Of a stretch of DNA of 42,310 nt, positions 13,192-29,070 are shown one piece after another. Each line of letters begins with the position of its first letter. Positions within the stretch are counted from its first letter, which is position 1. The stretch is taken from assembly GCA_011375175.1 (NCBI GenBank), contig DRME01000004.1, positions 1-42,310 of the forward strand, read 5' to 3'. Source of the DNA: Deltaproteobacteria bacterium. Lineage in GTDB: Bacteria; Desulfobacterota; GWC2-55-46; DRME01. Made by a program: the position numbers and the translations under genes. The notes beneath the pieces are model-generated. The model was not told the DNA's origin. It made no database searches and worked only from the letters and a program-made list of their open reading frames with translations.

Positions 13192-14274
13192 TCACGGCCC
13201 CGCGGCTTCCGCGGACCCGGCTCGTCTCAGGCGGAAGCGCACGGGCACTTCCACCCACATGGCCTTCCTTTCCCCGTCCACGAGGGCCGGCACGAACCGC
13301 CAGCGCCGCACGGCCTCCAGGGCGGAGCGGTCGAGGAGGCGGTGGCCGCTCGATGCGAGGACCTCGACCCGCTCCACCTGACCGGAGGCGCCGACGAGCA
13401 CCCGCAGTGTGACGACCCCTTCCAGCCCCCTGCGGCGGGCGATGCGCGGGTAGCGGGGCGGAGGGTTGAGGTCGTAGCGCGGAACGGCGCGGCGCAGGTC
13501 CTTTCGGGCCGGCGGGTCCTTTCGGGCCGGCGGGGAGCCGCCGCGGGCCGCGGCGGCGCTGCCTCCAGGCGGGGGGTCGCCGGTCTTGCCGCCGGGTCTT
13601 CCGCCATCGGCCGCCGTGACTCCGGGCCTTCCGCTCGAGCGGCGGGACGCCCGCGCCGCCGCAGGCGTCCCGCCGTGGACCGGCTGCACGGCCGGACCGA
13701 AGGCGGTGCGGACCTCACGGCTCTGTCCGGGACCCTGCCGCCCCGGCGGTTCGGCGGTCCCGCCCGCCGCCTCTCCGCCCGAGGCGGGCGACGAAGGATC
13801 GGGCGCGGTCTCCTTCACGGCGTCCCCGCTCGCCGCCCCCGGCGGCCTGAACAGGGCAGCGGGCAAGGGCTCCTTCTCCACGAAGGCCACGGAGCGCAAC
13901 GACACGGCCTTGTCCGCTTTCTCCACGAAGGCCGCAGGCCCGGGCGCCGCCTCTTTCGCCGCGGCCCCATCCGGCGTACCGGCGGAAGGCTCCTCCCCCG
14001 CCTCATCGGCGGCGGCTGCAAGGGCCGCGGGCCCTTCGTCATCGGCGGCGCTTCCGGCTTCGCCCTCCCGCGCTTTCTCCATCTCCCGCTCATTCTCCCC
14101 GCCGCGGCGCGGCGCTTCCTCCAGCGCCACCGTCACCGATGATCCATCGTCTCTCTCTTCGCGGGGGCCTGGGGGCGTCACCGCCGCAGGCAGGGGAAGC
14201 TCTACGCTCAGGAGCGCGCCGTGGATGGCCGCGGCGGCGAGGACGGCGCCGAAGAGCCGCGCCGACGGACTCAT
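13192..14274 (-). CDS. tonB: TonB energy-transducing protein
   Basis: The protein has 360 residues. It has one N-terminal membrane helix (about 6-28), a long low-complexity Ala/Glu/Pro-rich periplasmic spacer, and a C-terminal TonB domain. That domain shows PPPRYPRIARRRGLEGVVTL, then SSGHRLLDRSALEAVRRWRF. TonB passes proton-motive energy from ExbBD to outer-membrane receptors, here most likely BtuB of the same locus. The spacer contains an 18-bp tandem duplication (13498-13533) encoding a repeated ARKDPP unit. Its ATG overlaps the exbD stop as ATGA. It is the last gene of the leftward corrinoid locus. Confidence 0.9.
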   Translation of the reverse strand: MSPSARLFGAVLAAAAIHGALLSVELPLPAAVTPPGPREERDDGSSVTVALEEAPRRGGENEREMEKAREGEAGSAADDEGPAALAAAADEAGEEPSAGTPDGAAAKEAAPGPAAFVEKADKAVSLRSVAFVEKEPLPAALFRPPGAASGDAVKETAPDPSSPASGGEAAGGTAEPPGRQGPGQSREVRTAFGPAVQPVHGGTPAAARASRRSSGRPGVTAADGGRPGGKTGDPPPGGSAAAARGGSPPARKDPPARKDLRRAVPRYDLNPPPRYPRIARRRGLEGVVTLRVLVGASGQVERVEVLASSGHRLLDRSALEAVRRWRFVPALVDGERKAMWVEVPVRFRLRRAGSAEAAGP

Positions 14275-14693
14275 CTTGCGCCGCGCCGGGGGCCTGCCTG
14301 GAGCGAGATGCGCGACAGCCCCGCCTCCTTCACCATGTCGAGCACGGAGAAGAGCTGCTCGTAGGATACGCTCCTGTCGGCGAAGACCCTCACCTTGCGG
14401 TCCGCCGACCCGCCGGCCCGCTCGCGCAGGAGTCCGACGAAACCGTCACGGGGCACGGCCTCGCCGTCGACGAGCAGCTCCACGGCCTCGCCCTCTCTGC
14501 GTATGGTCACGGCCACGGCCTCGCCGGTCTCGACGGCCGCCGCCCGCGAGGCCGGAAGCTCCACCCGCCCGCCCCGGTGGACGGCCATGGAGAGCATGGC
14601 GTAGATGAAGAAGACGAGCAGCAGGAAGACCACGTCGATGAGGGGAAGCATCTCGATGCGCGGCCCCCGCGTCTCTCTTCGGCCCAGCCTCAA
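14271..14693 (-). CDS. exbD: Biopolymer transport protein ExbD
   Basis: A 140-residue ExbD/TolR protein: a short cytoplasmic N-terminus (LRLGRRETRGPRIEM), one membrane helix with the proton-carrying Asp in LPLIDVVFLLLVFF, and a periplasmic domain. The start is inferred as TTG at 14693. It overlaps the exbB stop as TTGA and has AGGGAG six bases upstream, and no ATG or GTG precedes the conserved helix. It forms the TonB motor with ExbB and is coupled to both neighbours by overlapping stop and start codons. Confidence 0.88.
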   Translation of the reverse strand: MRLGRRETRGPRIEMLPLIDVVFLLLVFFIYAMLSMAVHRGGRVELPASRAAAVETGEAVAVTIRREGEAVELLVDGEAVPRDGFVGLLRERAGGSADRKVRVFADRSVSYEQLFSVLDMVKEAGLSRISLQAGPRRGAR

Positions 14694-15352
14694 GGTCGGC
14701 TCCCTGCGCGGCGGGCCGTAAAGGACTTCTCTTCGGCCTTCGCGCCGTCTCCCCCGACGCTCCAGGCGGCCTCGAGCCTTGAGCCGTAGTCTTCCATATG
14801 GTGGACGGCCTCGTCGACGAGGCCCCGGAAGTAGTTGTAGGGGAAGACCGCGGCAATCGAGACGGCAAGCCCCGCGGCGGTCGTGATGAGCGCCTCGGCG
14901 ATGCCCCCGCCGACGAGCCTCGGGTCCGCGGCGTCTCCGTGGCCGAGCGTGCTGAAGGCCGTGATGATGCCCGTCACGGTGCCGAAGATGCCTATGAGAG
15001 GGGCCGCCGTTATCATCGTGTCGAGCGCCTTCATGTAGCGGCCCATCTCTCTCTCCGCCCGCCTCGCCTCGGCCTCCATCGCCGCCGTCATGCCCCCGTG
15101 CCTGTGCCTGGCGCCTGCTCCAAGCACGGCGAGCACGTAGTCGCCGCTTCCGGCGGTCTTCTTTTCGACCGCCTCCCAGAGCCCGCGCCCGGCAAGGGCC
15201 ACGACCTCTTCCCTCAGGGCGCATCTTCCGCCGAGCCGGAGCCTGACCCAGAATACCGCTCGCTCGATCACCACCGCTACGACGACGACCGAACAGGCAA
15301 GGAGCGGCCACATGACGGGTCCGCCCCGCTCCAGGAGATCGTAAAGACTCAT
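14690..15352 (-). CDS. exbB: Biopolymer transport protein ExbB (MotA/TolQ/ExbB family)
   Basis: A 220-residue inner-membrane proton-channel subunit. Helix 1 is at about 14-34. A cytoplasmic domain follows. Helices 2 and 3 contain APLIGIFGTVTGIITAF and the ALITTAAGLAVSIAAVFPYNYF segment typical of ExbB. Two ATG codons lie close together. I chose 15352 because GGAGGG is six bases upstream of it but directly abuts the ATG at 15358. A family-2 hairpin separates it from the cobN-like gene upstream. Confidence 0.9.
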   Translation of the reverse strand: MSLYDLLERGGPVMWPLLACSVVVVAVVIERAVFWVRLRLGGRCALREEVVALAGRGLWEAVEKKTAGSGDYVLAVLGAGARHRHGGMTAAMEAEARRAEREMGRYMKALDTMITAAPLIGIFGTVTGIITAFSTLGHGDAADPRLVGGGIAEALITTAAGLAVSIAAVFPYNYFRGLVDEAVHHMEDYGSRLEAAWSVGGDGAKAEEKSFTARRAGSRP

Positions 15353-15380
15353 AGGCATCCCTCCAGAGAAATTCCCGTAA

Positions 15381-15458
15381 CCCCCGCCCCCGGGGAGGTC
15401 GGGTCGCAAAGGCGTAACACCCCCGCCTGGCGCGAGCCGACCTCCCCGGGGGCGGGGG
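15381..15458 (-). repeat. Family-2 hairpin element, copy 2 (inverted orientation)
   Basis: A perfect 22-bp inverted repeat (15381-15402 with 15437-15458) encloses a 34-base loop. Read on the minus strand the loop contains GCGCCAGGCGGG and TTACGCCTTTGCG, as in the other copies. The stem is a different GC-rich sequence. It lies between the cobN-like gene and exbB and could set different expression of the two parts of the operon. Confidence 0.8.
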
Positions 15459-15509
15459 GGGAAGAGGGGGAAAAAACGGCGGGGCCGCCGGCGCCCCCGC
15501 GGCAAGGGC

Positions 15510-18500
15510 TCATCGCCTCCGGGCCCGTCTCGCGCCGTAGAAGAGAAGGGCCGCCACGGCGGCGGCGAGCGCCGCCGTGGCGGCCGCAGCGGACCGCGGC
15601 GGCCCTTCCCCCTTCCCGGCCGTCCCGGCCCCCACCTCCTCCATGGCGAAGCCTTCCACCTCCACGGTTCCGTCGCCTCCAGGCGCGCTCCCCTCCCCCG
15701 CCTCGAGAGGGCGGCCCCGGGCCGGGCCGACGCCGATCTCCTCGAGTTCTTCGTCCCTTGGCCTCGATTGCCTGCCTGCGGCGCGCTCCAGCAGGGAGAC
15801 GAAGGTCTCCACCGTTTCAGAAGCCACGCCCGCCCGCGCCGCAAGGTCTGCGGCGAGCCGGGCAAGCCGCGGGTTGGCGCAGACAAGCTCGCTGCATGCC
15901 GGACCGGCGGCGGCCACGCTCTCCACGTACTCCGAGGCGAGCTCGGCCTTCACCTCGTCGGACGGGCTCCAGTAGCCCCTGCGCACGGCCTCGAGCATCC
16001 GCGCCGTCATGGCCTGCCGGGCCCAGGGGTTCGCCCCGGCGGTGAAGCCCTCGATGTCGAGACCTCGGCTGTCCCTCACGTAGACCTCGAAGACCTGCCG
16101 CCACAGCGATGCGTCCACCTCCTCCGGTGTCGTCACCTGCCAGCCCCAGAGGTTCTCGACGAAGTCGGCCATGGCCCCGGCCCCGGCGTAGTCCTCGCCC
16201 TTCATGCCCTCGATCCAGCGGGGGTTGAGGTTTCGGCTCCTGAGCTCGCGGCCCATGACCCTCGATAGCTCCTCCACCTCCACGGCGCCGGGGCGGAGCT
16301 GGGAAGTAACGAGCGTTTCCGGGGCCCGTCCCGCCCGGCGGCGCACGGCCGCGGCGAGCCCGCCGAGGTACTGGAACATGTCGTCGTTGTCGAGCAGGCC
16401 GTAGAGGCTGGAGGAGCGCGAGTGGACGGCCACGTCCACGTCGGCAAGCTGCGCCGCCAGCAGCCTCCCGGCCTTGCCGCCCCACCTGCCGCCTCCGAAT
16501 ACGAAACCCATGCGCCTTTCGTAGATGTCGGCTATCTCCGATTCGTCGCGCCAGCGTGGAGAGGCCGCCGCCTCGGCCACGCCGTTTCCGTAGGAGCCCG
16601 GCTCCTCGGAGAATACGCGCAGGCGGCTCAGCTCACGGGCCTCCTCCTCGTCGAGCCCCATTTCGATAAGCCGCGCCTTCGCGCGGCGGGCGGCCGCGGC
16701 CACGAGATTCTCCACGTCGGTCTGGCGCAGGGCCAGGCCGACCGCCTCGTCGAGCCACTCGATCATGTGGGGAAAGAGGTCGCGGTAGAGGCCCGAGGCG
16801 CTTACGAGCACGTCTATGCGCGGTCTGCCGAGCTCCCGGCCCGGGACGACCTCAAGCCCCGCCACACGGCCCGATGGAAGCCACCTCGGTCTTACGCCCA
16901 GAAGCCAGAGGATCGTCGACTCGTTTACGCCTTCGTTTCTCAGGAGCTCCACGGCCCAGAGCACGACGGCCACCTTGCGGGGATAGCGGCCGTGCTCTTC
17001 GAGGTGGGTGCGTATTATCTCGTCGGCCGCCTCCTTGCCGAGCCGCCAGGCCTCGCGGCTCGGAAGCCTTGCGGGGTTGAAGCCGTAGAGGTTGCGGCCC
17101 GTGGGCAGGGCCTGGGGGTTTCGCAGCGGGTCGTTGCCCTCGCCGGGCTCGACGTAGCGGCCCTCGAGCCCGCGCAGAAGGTTTTCCATCTCCCTTTGCG
17201 CCGACGCCTCGACAAGCCGCGCCACCTCGGCCTCGTCGGCGTCCGGGTTCCGGCCCGCGACGGCCCCGGCCATGGCCCTCGCCTCGTCGGCGTCCATGGC
17301 GCGGCCGTAGGTGTGCATGCCGTAGGGGATCATCTCCTCTCTCATCTCCTCGAGGTAGTGGGTCAGCTCATGGACGAAACGGCTGCGCCCGTCGGCGCCG
17401 CCGTGGAGGCGATCCTCACCGCGGCCCGCGGTCTCGGCGGCCAGGCCCGTTGCCTGCGCGAGCCTCACAAGCTCGCTGAACTTCTCGTCGGCCGTCACCG
17501 AGCCCACGCTCCTTGCCCGCTCGTACTCGTCGGCCAGCTCGGCCATGCGGGCGTACTCCGCGTAGAGGCCCGAAGGGCGCAGCAGGGGCGTCATGTGCGA
17601 GAGCATGACGCCCCGGCCGCGCCGCTTGGCCTGCAGCGCCTCGCCCACGTCGTCGACTATGTAGGGATAGAAGTTCGGTATGTCCGTTGTCAGCACCTCG
17701 GGCGAGCACGACGGCGAAAGGCCCGCCTGCTTGCCCGGCGTCCACTCGTAGGTTGCGTGGGTGCCGAGGTGGATCACGGCGTCGGCCCCGAAGACCTCCT
17801 TGAGCCAGAGGTAGGCGGCGATGTACTGGTGGTGGGGGTAGAGGGTCGTATCGTGGGCGAGGCCGGCCGGGTTGTCGCTCCAGGCCCTGGCGGGCTCGGG
17901 CATCATCACCAGGTTTTCGCTGCGCACCATGGGTATGACGATCTTTGCTCCGTGGACCATGAGGCCTGAATCTTCCGGCTCGCCCCACTGGGCGATGACG
18001 GCCTCCCGAAAGTCCGCGGGCAGGCGCGAGAACCACTCCCTGTAGGTCTCCATGTCGAGGAGGACGGCCCGGCCCGCGGCGACGAGCCCATCGAGCTCGC
18101 CGGGCGCCCAGGAGCCGATGTTGCGCGCGCCGGCCACTATGGTCTCCCTGAGCTCCCGCTCGCCGGGCACCCCGCCCGTCCTGTAGCCCCGCGCGGCGAG
18201 CGCCGCGGCGATCTCGCGCAGCGAGGCGAAGACGTTCAGGTAGCTTGCGCCGATGTTGTGTTTACCGCGGCTGTGGTTATAGAAGATGACGGCCACCTTC
18301 TTTTCGGCGTTGGGCTTTCGCCGCAGCTCCGCCCACGCCCGAAGACGCGGTATGAGGCGTTCCACGTTCTCCGCCACCGGACGGCTCAGGTAGTATCTCT
18401 TCGAGGTCTCGGGGTCCGCCACCTCCTCCTTGGCCGAAAGGACCGTGGGCTCGACGAGCCCCGATATCTCGGGCGCGGCCATGGTCCATGCCGCCTCGGT

Positions 18501-19409
18501 GGAGCCTATGCCCACGGGGCTCTCCCGCCACTTCTCGATCGTGTCCCCGTAGAGGTTCACGGCCGAGAGTATGGGCACGTCGAGGTTTCGCAGGGCCCGG
18601 GCCAGACCCTCCGTCAGGGCCGAGTAGAACTTGAGCGAGAAGGCGAGCACCAGGTCGACCCTCCCCACGCCGTCTTCGTCGAGGAGGAACTTCCTTACGG
18701 CCTCCTCGTCGCGTCCGAAGCAGGCGGTGACAGAAAAGCCCGCCTCCTCGAGACGCCTTATAATGTAGTCCACCGGCTCGCGCTGCCCCTCGGTGAGAAA
18801 GGACGCAAAGAACAGGAGCCCGATGCGCGGGCTCCGGGGGTCGTGGCCTGGCCTGCCCCGCAGCCAGCGCTCGTAGGCGCCGGCGTCGGTGAAGAGCCCG
18901 TCCGCGTCGGGGTGATATATGCCGAGCCTTGTCACGGGTTCCGCCTCGCCGTAGGAGAGGCCCTCGTCGAGGTGGCGGCTTATGACGAGCCGCAGCATGT
19001 TGCGCACGTTCCCGACGCTCATGTTGTCGTAGTAGGCGCTCACCTCTTCGTCGAAGATGTAGCCCCTGCGCCGCAGCCCCTCGTCGTCCACCGAGCTTCG
19101 CAGGGCGTAGACCGTCTTGCCCGCAAGCCCTATGTGGCCGTCGAGGTAGTCGGTGAGCTCCCGGCCCATGACGTCCACAACCAGGACCTTCGCCTCGTCG
19201 ATTGAGCGGCGGAGCCTTTCACCGCCTCCTGCGAGCTCTCCTGCGGCCACGACCTCGACGTCGGCGGCCGTGTCGAGGCCGGCGGCGGCGCGGTTTGCGA
19301 GGTAGGAGTTGTTGTCGATGACCATGAGGACGAGGTCGGCCGCCTGAGAGGACACGGGCGGCAGCAGCACGGCGAACAGCGCCGCGAGCGCCGCAGCCGC
19401 CGCCTTCAC
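15510..19409 (-). CDS. CobN-like chelatase with signal peptide and C-terminal membrane anchor
   Basis: This 1299-residue protein belongs to the CobN/BchH chelatase large-subunit family. It shows FYNHSRGKHNIGASYLNVF, then GTHATYEWTPGKQAGLS and SPEVLTTDIPNFYPYIVDD, which match the family core. Classical CobN inserts Co2+ into hydrogenobyrinic acid diamide in the cytoplasm with the ATPase pair CobS/CobT. This protein instead has a signal peptide (about residues 1-23, ending SSQAA) and a C-terminal hydrophobic helix followed by RRARRR, so the chelatase body should face the periplasm. No CobS, CobT, ChlI or ChlD is nearby. The closest concept known to me is HmuS of Bacteroidota heme-uptake operons. 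The GTG start overlaps the btuF-cbiZ stop as GTGA. It may bind or remodel corrinoids, or add or remove metal, using energy from the ExbB-like module. Confidence 0.85.
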   Translation of the reverse strand: MKAAAAALAALFAVLLPPVSSQAADLVLMVIDNNSYLANRAAAGLDTAADVEVVAAGELAGGGERLRRSIDEAKVLVVDVMGRELTDYLDGHIGLAGKTVYALRSSVDDEGLRRRGYIFDEEVSAYYDNMSVGNVRNMLRLVISRHLDEGLSYGEAEPVTRLGIYHPDADGLFTDAGAYERWLRGRPGHDPRSPRIGLLFFASFLTEGQREPVDYIIRRLEEAGFSVTACFGRDEEAVRKFLLDEDGVGRVDLVLAFSLKFYSALTEGLARALRNLDVPILSAVNLYGDTIEKWRESPVGIGSTEAAWTMAAPEISGLVEPTVLSAKEEVADPETSKRYYLSRPVAENVERLIPRLRAWAELRRKPNAEKKVAVIFYNHSRGKHNIGASYLNVFASLREIAAALAARGYRTGGVPGERELRETIVAGARNIGSWAPGELDGLVAAGRAVLLDMETYREWFSRLPADFREAVIAQWGEPEDSGLMVHGAKIVIPMVRSENLVMMPEPARAWSDNPAGLAHDTTLYPHHQYIAAYLWLKEVFGADAVIHLGTHATYEWTPGKQAGLSPSCSPEVLTTDIPNFYPYIVDDVGEALQAKRRGRGVMLSHMTPLLRPSGLYAEYARMAELADEYERARSVGSVTADEKFSELVRLAQATGLAAETAGRGEDRLHGGADGRSRFVHELTHYLEEMREEMIPYGMHTYGRAMDADEARAMAGAVAGRNPDADEAEVARLVEASAQREMENLLRGLEGRYVEPGEGNDPLRNPQALPTGRNLYGFNPARLPSREAWRLGKEAADEIIRTHLEEHGRYPRKVAVVLWAVELLRNEGVNESTILWLLGVRPRWLPSGRVAGLEVVPGRELGRPRIDVLVSASGLYRDLFPHMIEWLDEAVGLALRQTDVENLVAAAARRAKARLIEMGLDEEEARELSRLRVFSEEPGSYGNGVAEAAASPRWRDESEIADIYERRMGFVFGGGRWGGKAGRLLAAQLADVDVAVHSRSSSLYGLLDNDDMFQYLGGLAAAVRRRAGRAPETLVTSQLRPGAVEVEELSRVMGRELRSRNLNPRWIEGMKGEDYAGAGAMADFVENLWGWQVTTPEEVDASLWRQVFEVYVRDSRGLDIEGFTAGANPWARQAMTARMLEAVRRGYWSPSDEVKAELASEYVESVAAAGPACSELVCANPRLARLAADLAARAGVASETVETFVSLLERAAGRQSRPRDEELEEIGVGPARGRPLEAGEGSAPGGDGTVEVEGFAMEEVGAGTAGKGEGPPRSAAAATAALAAAVAALLFYGARRARRR

Positions 19410-21457
19410 GGTCCCGGCCCCGCCGGCCCGGCGGCCGGACGTCCCGATGCCTTGTCCGCCTCCCTTGCGGCGAGCCCCGAGAAGATCGCCCCCACGGCCC
19501 TCGACAGCACGGGCGGCACCCCCGGCACATCGACGGCCTCCGCCCGCACGGGCCGTCCGGCTATACGGGCCGCAACGGCGTCGGCCCAGTCGCCGACGGA
19601 CCCGGAGTCGGCCACCAGCCCCCTTTCCACGCCGTCGCTTACGGCGAGCATGGACTCAACGAAGCCGGCGTAGAACGGATCGAGCAGCAAGCGCTCGGCC
19701 TCGGCGCAGAGCCGCCGGTCCCCGCCGCCGAAGACGCTGCACAGCCCGTGGAACTCGATGCCCCTTTCGCGCAGCCGCCGGAATACCGGCCGGTCGGCCC
19801 TGAGGCCGTTGCCCGCCTCGACGGCCCGCATCACCCCGCGACGCACGGCCCGCGCAATGAGCTCGCCCATCTTCGTGTGGCCGCCGGCGGCGTCCACGAG
19901 GGGACCGCGTCCCTCGACCACCATGACGTTGTCCGTGCCCGTCCCCGTCGCGCCGTTTGCCGCACCGCTGTAGCTCGACCTTATGTCGAGGTCCTGGAGC
20001 GCCGCGCTCTTGGCCTCCGTTGCGGTAACCACGGCACGGGCCATGGCGCGCCCCGTAAGGCGCATGTTGGTCATTACGATGATGTTTACGGTGCCGGGGC
20101 CGCGCCGTTCCGGCTCGTAGAACGCCCCCTCGTCGTAGCCCATCCGCATGGCGTTGCCCGTCACGCCGGCGGTGACCACGACCGTTACCTCCATCTCCCT
20201 GAAGGACTCGGTGACAACGGCGGCGTCGTCCATGTCGGCACCCGTGAAGAGCACGGCCGTCGACGCCGGGTCAAGGCCCAGCGCCGCCAGGGTCTCCCGG
20301 CGCAGCCCCTCCACCCCCAGCCTGTGCCCAAGGCCCCAGGCCGGCGGCGGAAAGTAGTGGTTCGCCGCCGCCGTAACGCCGCTTCGCGGTCCATCGAGGG
20401 TTGAGAGCACCTCCATGGGCTCGCTGAAGGTGACGACGAGTGTTTTGTTCCGGAAGTCAAAGACGTCGCTCTCCACGAGCTCGGCCCGTTCAACGTAGGG
20501 GAGCTCGACGGACAGGGGCCTGCGCCTTATGACGCCCGCGGGCAGGACCGTATTGCCGGGACCGGCGAAGAGGTCTTCATAGACGGTGGCGGCGAGCCAG
20601 GCGGTGAAGTAGCCCGCATGGGTCGATACGCGGCAGGTGAGCTCGCAGGGAAAGAAGTATATGCGGCCCTCCTTCACGGCCTCGACCCCGTTCCACGGTT
20701 CGCTGTGGAGGATGGAGAGCAGGGCCCTGTCGCCGCCGCAGCCGTAGACGACCTGGGGGTCGAAGGCGAGCCACTCTTGCGCCGATACGGGCACCACGGC
20801 GCCGTCCCTGCCCCAGTGCGGCGCGATGGCCCCGGCCGCCCGTATGTACTCGTTCTGGAACGAGTCGTCGCCGGGAGCCATGAGGCGCTCTCTCCCCATT
20901 ATGCGCATGACGCGAAGCCTCTGTTCCGCTGGGATGAGCGCCGTCTTGCGCGCCGTCAGCTCAAGCAGCCTGCGCTGCTCGGCGACCACCGCGGCGGCCT
21001 CTTGCTCGCGGCCGAAGATGCGGCCCAGAAGCTCGATCTCTTCGAAGCCCTCGGCCACCGTGCGGGCCGACAGGTTTACGAGCGTGGTGTGTCCCCGGAG
21101 AGGGGAGAGCGCCTCCCGGTTCAGGGCCGAATGGAAGACGAGGTCCGGGGCCAGCGCCTCGATCCGTTCGATGTCCGGCGAGACGAAGCCGCCGACGACC
21201 TCTTTGCCGGCCGCCTGGGGCCACGAGGTGTCGTGGTATGTGATGCCTGCCACGGCGTCGGCGGCTCCTATGCGAAAGAGCATCTCCGTCACCGCCGGAG
21301 ACAGCGACACCACGCGGCGCGGCCTCTCATCGAGTCTCGTCTCCACGCCCGCCGAATCGGTGAAGACCAGCGGGTAGTCTCGGGCAGGTGCCGCCGCCGG
21401 CGCAAGGAGCAAGAGCAGAAGGAGCGCCGCGGCGCGCTGAAGGGTCTTCGTCTTCAT
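19406..21457 (-). CDS. Exported BtuF-CbiZ fusion: corrinoid-binding protein plus cobinamide amidohydrolase
   Basis: This 683-residue protein has a signal peptide (residues 1-25, Leu/Ala-rich, ending APA). A BtuF-like binding-protein domain follows (about 30-290: RRVVSLSPAVTEMLFRIGA, then GGFVSPDIERIEALAPDLV). A CbiZ-like domain comes next (about 320-550: VTAGVTGNAMRMG, VNIIVMTNMRLTGRAMARAV, TATEAKSAALQDLDI, GATGTGTDNVMVVEG, GGHTKMGELIARAV). CbiZ cuts the amide bond of adenosyl-pseudocobalamin or cobinamide amides so that the ring can be salvaged. The last 130 residues are unassigned. The signal peptide implies that CbiZ works outside the cytoplasm, which is unusual. The ATG overlaps the DUF2149 stop as ATGA. 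Confidence 0.85.
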   Translation of the reverse strand: MKTKTLQRAAALLLLLLLAPAAAPARDYPLVFTDSAGVETRLDERPRRVVSLSPAVTEMLFRIGAADAVAGITYHDTSWPQAAGKEVVGGFVSPDIERIEALAPDLVFHSALNREALSPLRGHTTLVNLSARTVAEGFEEIELLGRIFGREQEAAAVVAEQRRLLELTARKTALIPAEQRLRVMRIMGRERLMAPGDDSFQNEYIRAAGAIAPHWGRDGAVVPVSAQEWLAFDPQVVYGCGGDRALLSILHSEPWNGVEAVKEGRIYFFPCELTCRVSTHAGYFTAWLAATVYEDLFAGPGNTVLPAGVIRRRPLSVELPYVERAELVESDVFDFRNKTLVVTFSEPMEVLSTLDGPRSGVTAAANHYFPPPAWGLGHRLGVEGLRRETLAALGLDPASTAVLFTGADMDDAAVVTESFREMEVTVVVTAGVTGNAMRMGYDEGAFYEPERRGPGTVNIIVMTNMRLTGRAMARAVVTATEAKSAALQDLDIRSSYSGAANGATGTGTDNVMVVEGRGPLVDAAGGHTKMGELIARAVRRGVMRAVEAGNGLRADRPVFRRLRERGIEFHGLCSVFGGGDRRLCAEAERLLLDPFYAGFVESMLAVSDGVERGLVADSGSVGDWADAVAARIAGRPVRAEAVDVPGVPPVLSRAVGAIFSGLAAREADKASGRPAAGPAGPGP

Positions 21458-21831
21458 TGTTTTGCGCCTCCCCCGCCGCCCGCGCCCGGTCCCCAGGTAC
21501 CGTCGTCGGGCACGTAGACGACCGTGCCGTCTTCGAGGCGGTAGGCCGTGCCGAGACGGCGGCCCCGGCCCCGGCTCTTCTCCTCGGTCAGCCTCAGGGC
21601 CTCGATCCTCTTACCCTTCTTCATGATTATCTCCATCGTTCCGTCGGCGGAACGCTTGGTTATGGTCACCTCGGAGTCGTCGCGCAGCAGCTCGTCGAGG
21701 TGGTAGGCCCCGAAGAGGGCCAGCAGGAGTCCGACGATGAAGACGAGCCCCAGGTCAAAGAGGTTGGCTATACCGCTCAGGGGGTCGTCGTCCGAAGGGG
21801 GGCCGACCGGCCGGCGTCCGAGGTATCTCAC
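21454..21831 (-). CDS. DUF2149 family membrane protein, possible ExbD-like partner
   Basis: A 125-residue protein with one membrane helix near residues 24-42 (ANLFDLGLVFIVGLLLALFG) and a soluble C-terminal domain. I recognise it as DUF2149, a family often found beside CobN-like and ExbB-like genes. Its function is not established. The Asp placed inside the helix entry (NLFDLGLVF) resembles the proton-carrying Asp of ExbD/TolR. This and its coupling to the ExbB-like gene (GTGA overlap) make it a candidate stator partner. GTG start. Confidence 0.8.
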   Translation of the reverse strand: MRYLGRRPVGPPSDDDPLSGIANLFDLGLVFIVGLLLALFGAYHLDELLRDDSEVTITKRSADGTMEIIMKKGKRIEALRLTEEKSRGRGRRLGTAYRLEDGTVVYVPDDGTWGPGAGGGGGAKQ

Positions 21832-22421
21832 CGGCCGTCCTCCCCCGAAGTCGCAAGCTCGGCGGCTATCTCCATGTGCCTTACGTCCTCCTCCACCCAG
21901 CGGCGCTGCACGGTATGAAAGAAGTGGCTCAACAGACCAAGTGTCATGCCCACGACCGTGGTCGTGAAGGCCACGACGAGTTCCCCGGAAAGGCGCGTCA
22001 GGTCGCCGTCGCCGAGCGAGGCGAGGGCCGTGCCCATGGGTATGAGGGTCCCGACCAGCCCCAGCCCCGGCCCGGCGCGCGTTACGATACGCAGCACGTC
22101 GAGCTCCTTCCAGAGCCGGTGCTCCGTCTCGCGCAGCAGGCTCATGACCGCCACGTCGGCCCGCCCGCCGCGGTCCACCTCGGCGAGCCTGCGGCAGAAC
22201 GTCTCTACAGCCGGCCCGAAGCTCCTGTACTCGCCGCGCGCCAGGGCCTCAACGGCGTCTGCTGGCCTGCCGGCGCGGCGGCGTTCGAGCCAGAGGGCGA
22301 AGAACGAACCGCCGTGGACGACGACCCAGACCGTAAGCGCCGCGAGCATGGCGAGCACGGGCAGCAGAAGCGACGACGCCGTAAGAAATATGAACGACTT
22401 GAGAAGGGCCGTCACTTCCAT
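21828..22421 (-). CDS. MotA/TolQ/ExbB-family proton channel protein
   Basis: A 197-residue protein, distinct from the ExbB at 14690. Helix 1 is at about 12-35. The C-terminal pair of helices contains RAGPGLGLVGTLIPMGTAL and GELVVAFTTTVVGMTLGLLSHFF, the TolQ/ExbB pore signature. It should form an inner-membrane proton channel. Its genomic partner is DUF2149 and not a standard ExbD. ATG at 22421 follows AAGGAGG. It overlaps the DUF2162 gene by 10 bases and DUF2149 by four, so all three are probably made in fixed ratio. Confidence 0.88.
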   Translation of the reverse strand: MEVTALLKSFIFLTASSLLLPVLAMLAALTVWVVVHGGSFFALWLERRRAGRPADAVEALARGEYRSFGPAVETFCRRLAEVDRGGRADVAVMSLLRETEHRLWKELDVLRIVTRAGPGLGLVGTLIPMGTALASLGDGDLTRLSGELVVAFTTTVVGMTLGLLSHFFHTVQRRWVEEDVRHMEIAAELATSGEDGR

Positions 22422-23092
22422 GCTCCCCTCCTTCGCCGCATAGCTGCGCCGGCGAGGAAGGCCCCGCCGAAGAGGACGGCGAGGACCTCTCCACCGCCCC
22501 GGTCCTGCCGGGGCCCCTCGATGCTCAGGCGGTAGACCCGCGCCGCGTCTTCGAAGGGAGGCGAGACGGCCAGGACGACGAGACAGGCCGCTCCAAGGGC
22601 CATGGAGCCCGCAAGGAGGCGGGGCACGGTCCTCGAGCCTCCACGGGCGGCCCTGAAGCCCGCCGCCGCGCTCGCAGCCGTAACGGCGACGGCGCAGGCA
22701 GCGGCCGCCGCCTTCCACGCCCCCATGAGCTCGCCGAGCCCCGGCGCGCACAGGACAGAAAGCCCCGCGGCCGCCGCGAAAAGGAGAACGAAGGGCTGCG
22801 GCGCTCCGTTCCCTCCGGCCTCTCCATGGCCGCCTCCGAGGAGCGCGGCCCCGCAACCGAGAAGAAGGGCCGCGGCGAGGAGCAGGAGCTGCGGTGCGCC
22901 GGCGGCCGCCCCCTCCGGGCCGGCGGAGGCCGCAAGGACGACGGCGAGCGCAGCCCCGCCGGCGACACCGCCCCGTAGACGGCGCAGCGAGGAACGTCCG
23001 CCGCGGCCCGCCGCGGAGAGCCCGGTCCCGCTCCCCGCCCCGAGCAGCAATGCGGAAAGCGCAAGAGCGCACAGCAAGGTGAGAATATCCAT
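22412..23092 (-). CDS. DUF2162-type polytopic membrane protein
   Basis: A 226-residue protein made almost wholly of Ala/Leu/Gly-rich hydrophobic segments, about six to seven membrane helices. Sequence character and position match DUF2162, a putative transporter found with CobN-like, ExbB-like and DUF2149 genes. It is the only polytopic candidate in the locus for moving a corrinoid or metal across the inner membrane. It also resembles low-complexity Ala-rich proteins, so recognition by motif is weak and leans on the neighbourhood. ATG at 23092, with GGAGG 11 bases upstream. Confidence 0.65.
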   Translation of the reverse strand: MDILTLLCALALSALLLGAGSGTGLSAAGRGGRSSLRRLRGGVAGGAALAVVLAASAGPEGAAAGAPQLLLLAAALLLGCGAALLGGGHGEAGGNGAPQPFVLLFAAAAGLSVLCAPGLGELMGAWKAAAAACAVAVTAASAAAGFRAARGGSRTVPRLLAGSMALGAACLVVLAVSPPFEDAARVYRLSIEGPRQDRGGGEVLAVLFGGAFLAGAAMRRRRGAWK

Positions 23093-23194
23093 AGACCGAA
23101 AAACCTCCGGCTCTTTCTCGATGGAACCCTCCCGGTCGTATCCCGGTTTTATTGCCCGCCGGTACCGCCGTCACCGGCGGCACAGGAGGCACCC

Positions 23195-23270
23195 GGCGTC
23201 ACCCGGAGGGCCGGGCCGCGCCAGGCGGGGTCTTTTTACGCCTTTGCGGCCCGGCCCTCCGGGTGACGCC
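23195..23270 (+). repeat. Family-2 hairpin element, copy 3
   Basis: A perfect 23-bp inverted repeat (23195-23217 with 23248-23270) encloses a 30-base loop with GCGCCAGGCGGGG and TTTACGCCTTTGC. The stem (GGCGTCACCCGG...) differs fully from those of copies 1 and 2. It lies in the 243-base gap between btuB and the DUF2162 gene. Confidence 0.8.
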
Positions 23271-23290
23271 TTGGAGGGGGCGCCGCGGTC

Positions 23291-23345
23291 CGTTTTTCAA
23301 GGAGGCTCCCTCGGGGGAACAAACCGGGACCTCCTTCAAAAAACG
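23291..23345 (-). repeat. Inverted repeat overlapping the 3' end of btuB
   Basis: The arms CGTTTTTCAAGGAGG (23291-23305) and CCTCCTTCAAAAAACG (23330-23345) pair with a single bulge. The right arm lies inside the last codons and stop of btuB. It could slow readthrough into the downstream genes or protect the btuB transcript end. Confidence 0.45.
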
Positions 23346-25357
23346 TAGCGGTAGCCCGCAAAGAGGGCGCGGCCCTGCTTGGGATAGCCCTTCTTCTCGT
23401 AGTAGTACCTGTCGAAGAGGTTGTCGGCCTTGAAGGTCAGCCTGTGATGGTCGCGCAGGGTTACGGCCACGACGAGATCCACCACCGTGAATGAGGGATA
23501 CTGGATCTCCGGGTATCCTGGCGCGTTCCAATCCGTGTCCTTCATGGAGCCCCGGCTTCGCAGGTGGAGCTTGCCCTCCACCCACTCGTCCTCGTAGCGT
23601 ATGCCGTAGTTGATGGTATAGCGGGCCACGTTGTGGATATCGCGCATCGAGCCGCCGGGCCGCTCCTCCTCTGCCCTGAGCATGTGGGTGGAGTTGACGA
23701 ACAGCGAGAGCGAGCGCTCCCAGTCGAGCGCCGCCCCCATGTCGAAGGAGACGTCCGTCTCCACCCCCTCCATCTCGGCGCTCAGGCTGTTGACGTAGGT
23801 CGTGGTGTAGCCGCTCGTTACGGTCGTTATCTTGTCGTCCACAGAGGTGCGGAAGTAGGTGACGTCGGCCCATATGCCGAGGCGGCGGCTATGGTAGCCG
23901 AGACCGGCGTCGTATGTGACCGACGACTCGGGGTCGAGGCCGGCGTTGCCGGTGGTCACCATGGTCACGCCGCCCACGACCCGCTCCGAGTAGCCGGCAA
24001 GCTGCGCGGCCGTGGGAGGGACGAAGGCCCGGCCCGCCGTGGCGTGCAGGCGCAGGCCCCCGCCGAGGAGGTAGCTCAGGCCGGCCCTGGGGCTGAAGGT
24101 GGAAAAACCCTCCGAGCGCGGCGTGAAGTCCGTCTTGTACGGCGTGGGCCTCGTCTCCACGTCGAAGGAGTCGTAGCGGCCTCCGGCCGTGACCGTGAGC
24201 CTGCCGCCCCCGAGGCTCCAGACCGTCTCCACGTAGCCCGCCCGGTTTGTGCGTCCCTCGTCGGGCGAGTAGGGGGCCTTCCTCGTACCGTCGGTCTTGT
24301 AGCTCCGGCTCTCCATGTCGATCTCCTGATAGTCGAAGCCTGCTATTATGCGGTGGTCCCCGACGGCGAGCTCGTCTCTGAGCTGGAGGCCGAACCAGTC
24401 GATCTCCGAATCGTAGCTGCGGTAGGGGTCCGACGGCACGGGCGTGGACCAGCCGGTGTAGCGCTTGTAGTTCTCGGAGGTCTCGTTCGCCTTGTAGACG
24501 GTGAGGGTGACGCGGTTGTGCGGGCCGAGGCCGCCTCCCACGGTGAGGTCGAGGCCGTAGCGGTCCAGGTCCTTGTAGCCCGCCTTCGAGTCGCCGTAGA
24601 AGATGTCGCCCGGAGTTTCGATGTCACGGCCCCGGTAGAAGTCCGCGGCTGCGTCGGCCCGCCATGTGCCGCCCATGTCGATGCCGAGGCGCAGGCCGCC
24701 GTTCTCCGTCTCATAGGTCGTGTTGGCCCTTGTGCGGCCGTCTCCCGTATCGTAGTCGCCGGAGCGGTCGTAGCGGCCGGCGTGGACGTCGAGGTCGAGG
24801 GCCTTGGTCAGGGAGCCGCCGACGGAGAACTTCTGGAAATTGGTGGCAAAGGAGCCCAGGCCCGCCTCGACCATGCCACTTGCAGGCCCCGTGCTCTTTT
24901 TTGTGATGATGTTCACCACCCCGCCCATGGCCTCGGCGCCGTAGAGAGAGGAGGCCGGTCCCTTGAGGACCTCGATCCGCTCTATGTTGTCGGCAAGGAG
25001 GGCGGCCAGGTTGGTGGCCCCCGCGGGCCTGCCGTTTACGAGCACCAGCGAGTGCTTGGTGATGCCCGAGAACTCGGGCCTGAAGCCGCGGATGCCTATG
25101 CCGGCCAGGGCCCCGGGGTACTCGATGACGTCGACCGAGCTGTTCTTCTTGAGCTGTTCGGTCAGGGTGTCGCCGGTTGTGAGCTCCACGGTGGAAGAGT
25201 CGATCACCTCCACCCTGGCCGGCACGCGCGTTGCGTCGTAGCCGCTCCTTGTGGCCGTCACCACCACCTCGGCCATGACGGGTGTGGCGGCGTCGTCTCC
25301 GGCCGAGGCCGGCGACGCCGCAAGAAGCGACGCCAGAGCAAACCATACCTTCTTCAT
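23336..25357 (-). CDS. btuB: TonB-dependent outer-membrane receptor, BtuB-like
   Basis: A 673-residue precursor. A signal peptide occupies about 1-19 (ASPASA). A TonB-box-like stretch follows (TPVMAEVVVTAT). The plug domain (about 40-150) contains IRGFRPEFSGITKHSLVLVN and LKGPASSLYGAEAMGGVVN. The rest is a 22-strand beta-barrel that ends GYRYVF with the terminal aromatic needed for outer-membrane insertion. Cobalamin riboswitches upstream and corrinoid genes downstream make cobalamin or another corrinoid the likely ligand; sequence alone would also allow a siderophore or heme. ATG at 25357 follows AAGGAG. Confidence 0.9.
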   Translation of the reverse strand: MKKVWFALASLLAASPASAGDDAATPVMAEVVVTATRSGYDATRVPARVEVIDSSTVELTTGDTLTEQLKKNSSVDVIEYPGALAGIGIRGFRPEFSGITKHSLVLVNGRPAGATNLAALLADNIERIEVLKGPASSLYGAEAMGGVVNIITKKSTGPASGMVEAGLGSFATNFQKFSVGGSLTKALDLDVHAGRYDRSGDYDTGDGRTRANTTYETENGGLRLGIDMGGTWRADAAADFYRGRDIETPGDIFYGDSKAGYKDLDRYGLDLTVGGGLGPHNRVTLTVYKANETSENYKRYTGWSTPVPSDPYRSYDSEIDWFGLQLRDELAVGDHRIIAGFDYQEIDMESRSYKTDGTRKAPYSPDEGRTNRAGYVETVWSLGGGRLTVTAGGRYDSFDVETRPTPYKTDFTPRSEGFSTFSPRAGLSYLLGGGLRLHATAGRAFVPPTAAQLAGYSERVVGGVTMVTTGNAGLDPESSVTYDAGLGYHSRRLGIWADVTYFRTSVDDKITTVTSGYTTTYVNSLSAEMEGVETDVSFDMGAALDWERSLSLFVNSTHMLRAEEERPGGSMRDIHNVARYTINYGIRYEDEWVEGKLHLRSRGSMKDTDWNAPGYPEIQYPSFTVVDLVVAVTLRDHHRLTFKADNLFDRYYYEKKGYPKQGRALFAGYRYVF

Positions 25358-25407
25358 CGTTTGCGCTCCTTTCTCCCCCCTCGGGGAATCGGGATATCGT
25401 CAGCTTC

Positions 25408-25540
25408 GAAGCAGGTCTCCTGGCTCTCGGTCATCCTACCGGCCGCGCCTTCCCGTCCCGACTGCGGACAGTGGCTTACGATGCGGCTTTCGTCACGATT
25501 ACAGTCGCGGGGCGGCGGGAGCTTCCCACTCCCTTCCCTT
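25408..25540 (-). promoter_or_regulatory. Cobalamin riboswitch, 5'-truncated (btuB-proximal copy)
   Basis: Read leftward it contains the AGGGAA junction, a P3-like hairpin (GGGAG/CTCCC), the CCGCGACTGTAA segment, GACGAAAGCCGCATCGTAA, the B12 box GCCACTGTCC, and the end AGCCAGGAGACCTGC. These match the cobalamin riboswitch core and the intact copy at 25778-25943. The strands that should lie before AGGGAA, the 5' sides of P1 and P2, are absent. A family-1 repeat begins exactly there. It probably no longer forms the closing helix. Confidence 0.8.
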
Positions 25541-25618
25541 AAGGAAACTCTGATTAATTACCCTGAGGGAACCTTTTTACAAAAAGGTTCCCTCAGGGTA
25601 ATTAATCAGAGCTTCCTT
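25541..25618. repeat. Family-1 palindromic element, copy C (minimal form)
   Basis: A nearly perfect 78-base palindrome. The inverted ends (AAGGAAACTCTGATTAATTA and partner) close directly on the GAGGGAACCTTTTT hairpin (25565-25594), without the other two hairpins. It separates the two cobalamin riboswitches and abuts the truncated one. Confidence 0.85.
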
Positions 25619-25668: not shown

Positions 25669-25708
25669 TAAAAAAACCCCGAACCTCCAAAAGAGAAGAG
25701 GTCCGGGG
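25669..25708 (-). terminator. Intrinsic terminator downstream of the intact cobalamin riboswitch
   Basis: On the minus strand, CCCCGGACCTC pairs with GAGGTTCGGGG (one G-T pair) around a short loop and is followed by seven T residues. It begins about 70 bases after the riboswitch and before btuB. This suits B12-dependent transcription termination. Confidence 0.75.
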
Positions 25709-25777
25709 ATGCCGTTTTTCACCCACGGGGATACGGCCGCGACCGACCACCACGACGGCCGCGGGCGACGTCATATC

Positions 25778-25943
25778 ATCGCAGGCAGGTCTTCTGGCTT
25801 CCGGATCGTCCTACTCGCCGCGCCTTCCCGTCCCGGTTACGGACAGTGGCTTACGATGCGGCTTTCGTCCCCGGTTACAGCGGCGGGTCCGCGACGGTCT
25901 TGCACCGTACTTCCCTATCAAGGCCTTTGCGGCCACCTGCGAT
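25778..25943 (-). promoter_or_regulatory. Cobalamin riboswitch (intact copy)
   Basis: The P1 strands ATCGCAGG (near 25936-25943) and CCTGCGAT (25778-25785) pair. Between them, in order on the minus strand, are ATAGGGAAG, CGGTGCAAGACCG (P3 loop), CCCGCCGCTGTAA, GACGAAAGCCGCATCGTAA, the B12 box GCCACTGTCC, and AGCCAGAAGACCTGCC. This is the full cobalamin-element pattern. With cobalamin bound, the terminator at 25669-25708 would be expected to form and stop transcription of the btuB operon. Confidence 0.92.
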
Positions 25944-25959
25944 TATTTTCCGGTGGGAG

Positions 25960-25988
25960 AATATACACCGGGCGCAACAGACTGTCAA
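25960..25988 (-). promoter_or_regulatory. Strong sigma-70 promoter of the corrinoid operon
   Basis: Read leftward: a perfect TTGACA, a 17-base spacer, TATATT. Transcription would start near 25953, about ten bases before the riboswitch P1. The leader to the btuB ATG is then almost 600 bases. Confidence 0.75.
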
Positions 25989-27116: not shown

Positions 27117-28535
27117 TCAGGCGGGCCCTACCTTCTTTATCCTGAAATCGCCGCCTACTTCGAGCACCTTGACCTTGTGTCTCTCTCCATCGCGCCAATT
27201 GATGTAGCCCCCTGAGACCCTGCAGGAGAAGCATTCTGCATCATCGGGCTTGAGCGTGAATATGTCGCCTCTCTTCCCCATCATCGTCACCATGAGCTTG
27301 TCGCCTCTCCGTGGCGGCCTCTTATTCGCAGACCTACGATCTTCTTTAGAAGACTTTTTGTCAGAAGACTCGACACGGACGGACGAGCCGCCGGAACCGC
27401 CATGGCCGCCTCTCATGTAACAGCCGTTTTTATCTATGCCTACACCTTTGTAGTTGTTATACCGGAGGTAGCCGATCTCCGCGTGTTCGTGCTTGTCAAG
27501 ACGAAGAAGCCCCATCAGCTCGTCGGGTATCGTGACCGCCTCGGCTTCCTTCTTAAGCTCGTCTGCCTTTACTGATTCCCCGCCGTCCTTCTTGTAGCGC
27601 TCCCCGCCGCGGTGGACGCGGGACTCGTCCCACTTTATGGTTATGGAGCACGAGCCGAAGCCCAAGGGCCTTGCCATCCCAACCTTGTGGCCGAGCCCCT
27701 CTTCCAGCACCATGACGCGGACGAGCGTCTTTAGTTCCTCATCAGTGAGCCCATTGAGCAGGACGTCGAAGTCGAACCTGGCGCCACTCGGGGCGTACTC
27801 CTCTATGCCGCAGGCCCTCTTCGACCACCTGTCCCCTACGTCTTCAGGCTCCTCGAACCCTTCGTGGTGGTAATAGAACTTGCGGCCGGCGATGGAACCA
27901 TTACACAGCCCGTTGCCGCTGTATATGGCGTAGTGGTATGGCTTGGGGGCGGAGAGTTCCGCGAGTCTTATGTAAGCTTTGTAAGCTTCCTGGAGGGAGC
28001 ATCCTTGGTCGAGCACGGCGTCGGTGAAGACCACCCTGCCGCGCAGGTGCAGGGTCTCCCCCTCGATGGCTCCGAAGAGGCGACAGGCCGGGCACAGGCT
28101 TTCGGGGCCGCGGCATCGCATGTGCTCTTCCCCCAGAGGCTTGAAAGAAAATTCTCTGGTACGCTTACCGAGCTTGACTCCGCCCTCGGTCGCCGCCAGG
28201 GGGAGGCACGAGTTCGTCACGGCCTCGAAGACGCTTCGCACCATGCCGCGGATGGAGGCGCCCTGGATGATGGGCTTGTCCGCTCCGTTCCTGAGAAACC
28301 GGAAGACCTTCTGGCCGCCCGCTCCGTTCGGGGCCGGAGTGCGCTGGTCGGCGGTGAAGAGAGGGCTCTTCGCCTCCAGCGTGCATACGAGCCTTCCGGT
28401 GTAAAGCTCCCCGAGGTCGTGCCACAGTACTGGAGCCCCCCGTTTGCTCTCCCCATTTTTCAGAGAGACGAAGTTGTAGGGATTCACCGATGGCTTGAAC
28501 TCTCCGCTCACTCGTCTATCCCCCTTCCTCACCAC
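27117..28535 (-). CDS. Type III CRISPR RAMP protein, TIGR03986-like (Cas7 group)
   Basis: A 472-residue RAMP protein. The N-terminal NPYNFVSL and the Cas7-like FRFLRNGADKPIIQGASIRGMVRS match the TIGR03986 family of type III-D-like loci. CRGPESLCPACRLFGA is a cysteine-bearing loop also seen in the neighbouring RAMPs. The C-terminal 60 residues (RGDKLMVTMMGKRGDIFTL...) look like a small OB or S1-like beta domain and follow a Lys/Arg/Ser-rich linker. It is probably a backbone or capping subunit of the crRNA complex. It overlaps csx19 by 20 bases; GTG starts at 28535 and 28511 are both supported by purine-rich sites, and I kept the upstream one. Confidence 0.8.
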   Translation of the reverse strand: MVRKGDRRVSGEFKPSVNPYNFVSLKNGESKRGAPVLWHDLGELYTGRLVCTLEAKSPLFTADQRTPAPNGAGGQKVFRFLRNGADKPIIQGASIRGMVRSVFEAVTNSCLPLAATEGGVKLGKRTREFSFKPLGEEHMRCRGPESLCPACRLFGAIEGETLHLRGRVVFTDAVLDQGCSLQEAYKAYIRLAELSAPKPYHYAIYSGNGLCNGSIAGRKFYYHHEGFEEPEDVGDRWSKRACGIEEYAPSGARFDFDVLLNGLTDEELKTLVRVMVLEEGLGHKVGMARPLGFGSCSITIKWDESRVHRGGERYKKDGGESVKADELKKEAEAVTIPDELMGLLRLDKHEHAEIGYLRYNNYKGVGIDKNGCYMRGGHGGSGGSSVRVESSDKKSSKEDRRSANKRPPRRGDKLMVTMMGKRGDIFTLKPDDAECFSCRVSGGYINWRDGERHKVKVLEVGGDFRIKKVGPA

Positions 28536-29070
28536 CGAATATCTCCATCTTCACGGCCAAGCAGCGCTCGAACTCGCCGCTGCCGTTGCGCCCCCTGTAC
28601 CTGCGCACAGTGAGACAGGGTGCTGCCTTTGCGTGCTGACCGACCTTACCCCACGTTATGGGGTATTTCAAATAACCCGGTATGGTGTTGTCATGAAAGA
28701 CCACCATCCCGACACCGCCTTCGGGGTCCCCTGCCGGGTCCACCGGCTCGCCCCACAGGATGAGCCCGGCATCGCCGGTCTTTTCAAGCTCCAGTTCTCC
28801 ACCGAACTCATCGGGCATCTTGCCATCGTCTAATATGAGCACGCAATGGAGCTTACCGTCCGACTTCTTTCGCCAGCGGTACTCGCCGTTTTCGCCGAAT
28901 ATGCGGCCCTGGGGCCAGATATCTGGTATACTCCAGGAGACGTTGTCGGTAAGATCGAGCCTTGCCGCGACGGGCGACTCCAACCAGGCGAAGCACAGGC
29001 CGAAACAATCCGGCTTTACCGAAGACGGATGCTCATTGGCGCCGGCGATGAAGAAACCTATAACGGCCAT
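28516..29070 (-). CDS. csx19: CRISPR-associated protein Csx19 (TIGR03984-like)
   Basis: A 184-residue protein without RAMP glycine loops. Size, the N-terminal block, the WPQGRIFGENGEYRWRK segment and its place beside a TIGR03986 protein fit Csx19, a subunit typical of type III-D systems. Its role in the complex is not known to me. Its ATG overlaps the stop of the preceding RAMP gene by one base (TGATG), so the two are tightly coupled. Confidence 0.7.
   Translation of the reverse strand: MAVIGFFIAGANEHPSSVKPDCFGLCFAWLESPVAARLDLTDNVSWSIPDIWPQGRIFGENGEYRWRKKSDGKLHCVLILDDGKMPDEFGGELELEKTGDAGLILWGEPVDPAGDPEGGVGMVVFHDNTIPGYLKYPITWGKVGQHAKAAPCLTVRRYRGRNGSGEFERCLAVKMEIFGGEEGG

Follow-up and report, generated by a model that had tools for sequence, protein, structure and literature searches.

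We describe a leftward operon of nine genes (13192-25357) in a 42,310-nucleotide stretch of DNA, here called the window, which belongs to contig DRME01000004.1 (assembly GCA_011375175.1) of a Deltaproteobacteria bacterium. The operon lies behind two cobalamin riboswitches and encodes, from 25357 downwards, a TonB-dependent receptor, a polytopic protein, an ExbB-like channel protein (ExbB1), a DUF2149 protein, a BtuF-CbiZ fusion, a CobN-like protein, and then ExbB2, ExbD and TonB (Table 1). Pfam matches and translations confirmed the strand, order and content that a preliminary description, made from the letters alone, had given for these genes, and likewise their overlapping junctions. Adjacent genes share a few bases, except that 243 nt follow the receptor gene and 157 nt separate cobN from exbB2. 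That description had also set the ExbB1-DUF2149 pair apart from the TonB energizer, and the second, complete ExbB-ExbD-TonB set in the same operon bears this out. Across related loci, this pair goes with CobN and not with TonB.

The operon and its B12-responsive leader

Table 1. Features of the operon and its leader, in the order of transcription (positions in the window)
Feature	Position	Strand	Evidence
Promoter-like TTGACA-17-TATATT, just upstream of riboswitch 1	25960..25988	-	Consensus scan, 11/12 positions; putative
Cobalamin riboswitch 1, complete aptamer	25767..25955	-	RF00174, 116.9 bits, model 1-189
Strong terminator-like hairpin with T-run, between the two riboswitches	25677..25708	-	12-pair stem, 8 GC
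Cobalamin riboswitch 2, complete aptamer	25393..25580	-	RF00174, 97.8 bits, model 1-189
TonB-dependent outer-membrane receptor	23336..25357	-	TonB_dep_Rec 166 bits, Plug 68 bits; B12 type by regulation only
Polytopic protein, degenerate DUF2162 homologue, 226 aa	22412..23092	-	No Pfam match of its own; homologues match PF09930
ExbB-like channel protein ExbB1	21828..22421	-	MotA_ExbB 50.6 bits
DUF2149, single-transmembrane protein, invariant Asp in the transmembrane segment	21454..21831	-	PF09919 101 bits; alignment
Exported BtuF-CbiZ fusion	19406..21457	-	Peripla_BP_2 65 bits, CbiZ 186 bits
CobN-like class I chelatase, exported, C-terminal membrane anchor	15510..19409	-	PF02514 1045 bits; predicted topology
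ExbB2 of the TonB energizer	14690..15352	-	MotA_ExbB 106 bits
ExbD	14271..14693	-	PF02472 84 bits
TonB	13192..14274	-	TonB_C 94 bits

Both leader riboswitches comprise a full aptamer and lie above the Rfam gathering score for RF00174, and the second is 91% identical to the first over 64 nt; the preliminary description was right about control by B12, but had counted one riboswitch where two stand in tandem. Such tandem arrangements recur before the same operon in distant genomes (leaders at L036:13559-14147 and L056:12178-12674) and, in Brocadia (L180:1885-2522), before the receptor gene. Counting Rfam hits only (more than half of the known riboswitches escaped a home-made pattern), a cobalamin riboswitch lies on the right strand within 1.5 kb upstream of the first operon gene in 18 of the 24 loci of the window's phylum whose upstream end is visible and could thus be tested, and in 20/36 across all scanned loci. 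Several of the negative loci have one farther upstream on the same strand, and in those Sphingobacterium, Parasulfuritortus and Lentisphaerae loci that were scanned Rfam found none. The association of riboswitch and operon is strong, not universal. A 38-nt inverted repeat (25541-25618; 97% perfect, with a loop of 2 nt) overlaps riboswitch 2 at its 5' end; the repeat's core, CTGATTAATTACCCTGAGGGAACC, occurs in five copies in the window against 0 expected by chance, which suggests a repeat element of the dispersed kind.

The reading of the TonB-dependent receptor as BtuB, made in the preliminary description, draws on the riboswitches only, because the protein falls below the cut-offs of both receptor models that were applied, the B12 receptor model TIGR01779 (155.8 bits, cut-off 599.7) and a heme-receptor model (220 of 317 bits). 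Export of the BtuF-CbiZ fusion, also part of the preliminary description, agrees with the hydrophobic N-terminus seen in 52/55 full fusions; the CbiZ domain (PF01955) matches above cut-off over 191/191 positions. The polytopic protein is a DUF2162 member by descent, so that the family name used in the preliminary description is right in this sense, given that 50/50 homologues at its position match PF09930 (best 2.9e-63), whereas the window copy alone has no such match. Five residues, K20, H83, C118, C121 and Y187, are invariant in 57 DUF2162 relatives (as are P117 and P119, in a PCPxC motif), and the window copy keeps none of the five; the window genome has no other DUF2162. Judging by this loss, the subunit may be either decaying or repurposed, or may have a structural role. 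Neither a structure model of the window copy (pLDDT 70) nor the confident model of an intact relative (pLDDT 89) had a match in the Protein Data Bank (PDB) below an E-value of 0.001, and CcdA was not used as a fold assignment, at a TM-score of only about 0.3.

Partners of the ExbB1-DUF2149 pair and the nature of its CobN

Relatives were fetched by DUF2149 alone, and their loci were then scanned with profiles built from the window proteins. DUF2149 matched in 37/297 genomes of the window's phylum and at 200 places in a collection of named genomes, where the carriers include Desulfobacterota, Synergistaceae, Planctomycetes with Brocadia, Betaproteobacteria, Sphingobacterium, Lentisphaerae, Thermodesulfovibrio and Methylomirabilis. 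Locus counts refer to 55 non-redundant DUF2149 loci that have 6 kb or more of sequence on either side. All of them contain ExbB1 (55/55), and an exported, membrane-anchored CobN is encoded on the same strand, no more than 9 kb away, in 54/55, a near-exclusive partnership, whereas TonB was found in 13/55 and ExbD in 9/55; because of this difference between CobN and TonB, we tie the pair to the former. A TonB-dependent receptor accompanies the pair in 46 loci, the DUF2162 polytopic protein in 45 and BtuF-CbiZ in 32. The co-occurrence of exported CobN, ExbB-like protein, DUF2149 and DUF2162, for which the preliminary description had suggested a survey, is a recurrent feature of these loci. In the profile scan DUF2162 went undetected in about ten loci, and several loci (Sphingobacterium L155 and L172, and also L152, L160, L161, L164, L176, L180 and L121) have ExbB1, DUF2149 and CobN with no DUF2162 detected, which counts for CobN as the client of the pair. 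One locus from the same order as the window (L055) shows a variant arrangement, ExbB2-ExbD-TonB-receptor-CobN-ExbB1-DUF2149, with neither riboswitch nor DUF2162. Among archaea, Methanosarcina acetivorans, an organism with no outer membrane, carries members of PF02514, PF01618 and PF09919, while Methanocaldococcus jannaschii and Haloferax volcanii have, of the CobN, MotA_ExbB and DUF2149 families, CobN alone. A home-made ExbB motif pattern proved uninformative.

The CobN of this gene set (hereafter the cassette) differs from canonical CobN in its predicted topology. A hydrophobic N-terminus is found in 75/88 cassette proteins and a C-terminal transmembrane helix in 82/88, the window protein being included in both counts, as against 0/29 canonical CobN proteins of the same phylum for the helix; the preliminary claim that the protein is exported and anchored is supported. 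The HmuS dechelatase likewise has membrane anchors at both ends, and the hydrophobic N-terminus of the cassette proteins may be such an anchor or a cleavable signal. The charge after this helix is more positive than before it in 67/69 tails, consistent with a predicted periplasmic enzyme that is anchored by its C-terminal end. In the PDB, the closest relatives of the window protein are HmuS (478 bits), CobN (449) and ChlH (416), so HmuS is indeed the nearest known parallel, as had been suggested. A tree built from the C-terminal half places canonical CobN apart from cassette CobN and HmuS (support 0.907). The general chelatase histidine (HmuS His538) is kept in 75/75 relatives; the second proposed axial histidine of HmuS, His1209, is Asp in the window and in 74/75 relatives, and the head/neck heme site His254-Gly-Arg is absent, the window having Tyr and Ala there (Met79 lies outside the alignment). 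By these residues, cassette CobN is a relative of HmuS that has the general catalytic residue and lacks the heme ligands, and we rejected it as a heme dechelatase proper. The CobN of L055 groups with HmuS in the tree (0.914), yet it also lacks His1209, for which reason we do not rely on that pairing.

The preliminary description had envisaged a system working with neither a BtuC-type permease nor the ATPase partners of classical CobN, and searches of the genome agree with this. The assembly (2.49 Mb, 98.6% complete) holds CobN in one copy only; it gave no match to the FecCD/BtuC permease family (PF01032), for which 13/14 control genomes did match, none to CobT (PF06213), and none above noise to a ChlID-type subunit (best TIGR02442 score 43 bits, at noise level). 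Three cobalamin riboswitches were found in the whole genome, the third lying ahead of one gene in which CbiX and CbiC are joined (PF01903 and PF02570; G000:C101:192-1583, L005), a fusion that is unusual for the anaerobic B12 pathway. CbiB is also present. Together with the riboswitch-linked fusion, it indicates that early cobalt insertion is the probable route to B12 in this organism, which would then not need CobN for B12 synthesis, a role we consider unlikely for the CobN-like protein. Upstream of the operon and on the same strand, two RAMP-superfamily genes (27117-30080) belong to a probable type III CRISPR-Cas module.

The absence of BtuC-family permeases is a feature of the window genome and does not extend to cassette carriers at large. 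FecCD-family matches occur in 28/30 genomes carrying the cassette, no different from the 269/297 of the whole phylum, and we accordingly rejected a general replacement of BtuCD by the cassette; of the earlier claim of a system distinct from BtuCDF, the part concerning this genome stands and the general rule does not. Members of the FecCD family take part in iron transport too, so that finding them is no proof of BtuC, and the window's class gave no strong FecCD matches with or without the cassette. Elsewhere in the phylum, other CobN homologues adjoin FecCD permease genes (G128:C1:615766, G037:C1:723559, G233:C53:5101 and others), and in G128, G037 and G180 these are near ChlID-type genes, which suggests a separate, ABC-linked type of CobN.

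Candidate mechanism and competing explanations

Taken with the exported BtuF-CbiZ and the riboswitches, which point to a corrinoid substrate, these results make it likely that the operon handles corrinoids and that its ExbB1-DUF2149 pair works for CobN. The proposed sequence of events would begin at low B12, when the two riboswitches would permit expression, and the receptor, energised by ExbB2-ExbD-TonB, would bring corrinoids into the periplasm. There the BtuF domain may bind them and the fused CbiZ may trim them towards cobyric acid, after which the CobN-like protein, anchored in the inner membrane, would bind the corrin and insert or remove a metal, with proton flow through ExbB1-DUF2149 taking the place of the CobS/CobT ATPase. 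The product would finally pass into the cytoplasm, a step for which DUF2162 or BtuCD may serve in other genomes. A role of ExbB1-DUF2149 as the motor of CobN is favoured by the CobN and TonB counts, by the second ExbB-ExbD-TonB set and by the occurrence of the families in Methanosarcina, and proton-driven coupling of the CobN-like protein is plausible. Our confidence is lower for the later parts of the scheme: metal chemistry of this protein on corrinoids is a tentative proposal that we rate slightly short of an even chance, and we give the same rating to the chain as a whole, a B12-repressible periplasmic processing of corrinoids that would be the counterpart of the Hmu heme system of Bacteroidota. 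The most specific form, a class I tetrapyrrole chelatase acting on periplasmic corrinoids and powered by an inner-membrane ExbB-DUF2149 proton motor in place of an AAA+ ATPase, is possible but doubtful.

Several observations weigh against the motor-driven chelatase. A profile comparison of DUF2149 with ExbD was not significant, the likeness being limited to the transmembrane Asp, and the archaeal evidence consists of the presence of the families, co-location not having been seen. Cobalt in corrins is very inert, and we know of no enzyme that removes cobalt from corrins. With its degenerate DUF2162, the machine may be partly decayed in the window genome. Finally, 8/13 genomes with cassette-type CobN only have a ChlID protein elsewhere, and independence from ATPase partners is therefore shown only for the window genome and four others in which ChlID was also not found (G054, G029, G254 and G002).

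Among the alternatives, the one we take most seriously, while still judging it unlikely, is a proton-driven corrinoid importer of the inner membrane, in which the CobN-like protein would receive and hand over the corrin and ExbB1, DUF2149 and DUF2162 would move it, replacing BtuCD. Such an importer would fit the B12 control of the operon, the lack of a FecCD permease in the window genome and its relative G054, and the annotation of DUF2162, found in 45/55 loci, as a predicted transporter; HmuTUV has likewise been proposed as a transport complex (PMC13227078). It fits poorly with the FecCD permeases of 28/30 cassette genomes and with the invariant chelatase histidine. The loci in which DUF2162 went undetected speak against it too, as does the window genome, which has no BtuC and a DUF2162 stripped of its invariant residues; both points also weaken the earlier idea of DUF2162 as a powered transporter. 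We find it improbable that ExbB1-DUF2149 is merely another ExbB-ExbD energizer for TonB and the receptor, since the operon already has a complete ExbB-ExbD-TonB set, TonB is near in so few loci, and the families occur in an archaeon that has no outer membrane. In favour of that assignment are the receptor in 46/55 loci and its publication for HmuU and HmuV (PMC10100974, PMC12583661).

The preliminary description had kept heme or other tetrapyrroles as possible substrates, and in its fullest form this would mean a Hmu operon proper, for heme or another porphyrin, with B12 riboswitches by happenstance. HmuS is the best solved relative of the window CobN, the heme-receptor model gives the receptor a better score than the B12 model does, and the gene set is that of hmu apart from HmuY; yet His1209 is replaced by Asp almost throughout, the His254-Gly-Arg site is absent, BtuF and CbiZ lie fused within the same operon, and riboswitches precede 18/24 loci of the phylum, all of which disfavour heme and leave this explanation very unlikely.

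If the motor-driven chelatase is correct, the enzyme would count as a metal chelatase run by protons, and the MotA/TolQ/ExbB motor family would gain a client of a new kind. The corrinoid system as a whole points to a way of salvaging corrinoids that anaerobes from many phyla would share and that bears on the sharing of B12 in communities, and it carries a warning that 'cobN' in such genomes does not imply aerobic B12 synthesis.

Relation to known systems

In the literature searched, which included few subscription papers, we found nothing on DUF2162 and nothing joining BtuS with a riboswitch, nor did we find any mention of BtuF fused to CbiZ, of the DUF2162 subunit, of the residue differences from HmuS or of the near-exclusive link between ExbB1-DUF2149 and CobN. 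Riboswitch-linked hmu-like operons have been noted before, in one passage on those of Bacteroides fragilis that lack HmuY and have a cobalamin riboswitch in front (PMC10100974), and PMC6460266 credits Rodionov 2003 with a BtuS family related to CobN. The Bacteroides BtuS proteins and riboswitch-preceded operons resemble the window in having a CobN-like protein that is exported and anchored, whereas those papers describe neither the BtuF-CbiZ fusion nor DUF2162 nor any occurrence beyond Bacteroidota, and BtuS1/2 have been studied for heme iron only.

The closest overall likeness is to HmuYRSTUV of Bacteroidota, which shares the TonB receptor, the anchored periplasmic CobN homologue, the small transmembrane protein, the ExbB-like protein and DUF2149, with T, U and V in the same order as their counterparts in the window (PMC10434189, PMC12583661). 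The window differs in its two cobalamin riboswitches and exported BtuF-CbiZ, in that no HmuY was found, in a CobN without the His1209 and His254 sites, and in a transmembrane subunit of the DUF2162 family where HmuT is annotated only as hypothetical. Beside HmuS, HmuU and HmuV have been assigned to energising the outer-membrane receptor (PMC10100974, PMC12583661), and HmuTUV has been presumed to act in transport (PMC13227078); our survey ties the pair to CobN, and a proton-driven chelatase thereby becomes a testable proposal for the role of the ExbB-like protein and DUF2149 there.

With CobNST, the window protein has in common the CobN fold family and the invariant chelatase histidine, but it is exported and anchored, falls in a separate clade, and belongs to a genome without CobT or ChlID. 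The BtuB-BtuCDF system likewise combines a B12 riboswitch, a TonB receptor and a BtuF-like binding domain, whereas here BtuF is fused to CbiZ and the genome has no BtuC-family permease. Finally, as in the TonB-ExbB-ExbD and MotAB motors, ExbB1 belongs to the MotA_ExbB family and DUF2149 has one transmembrane helix with an invariant Asp; unlike in those motors, DUF2149 is not significantly ExbD-like, and the pair tracks CobN rather than TonB.

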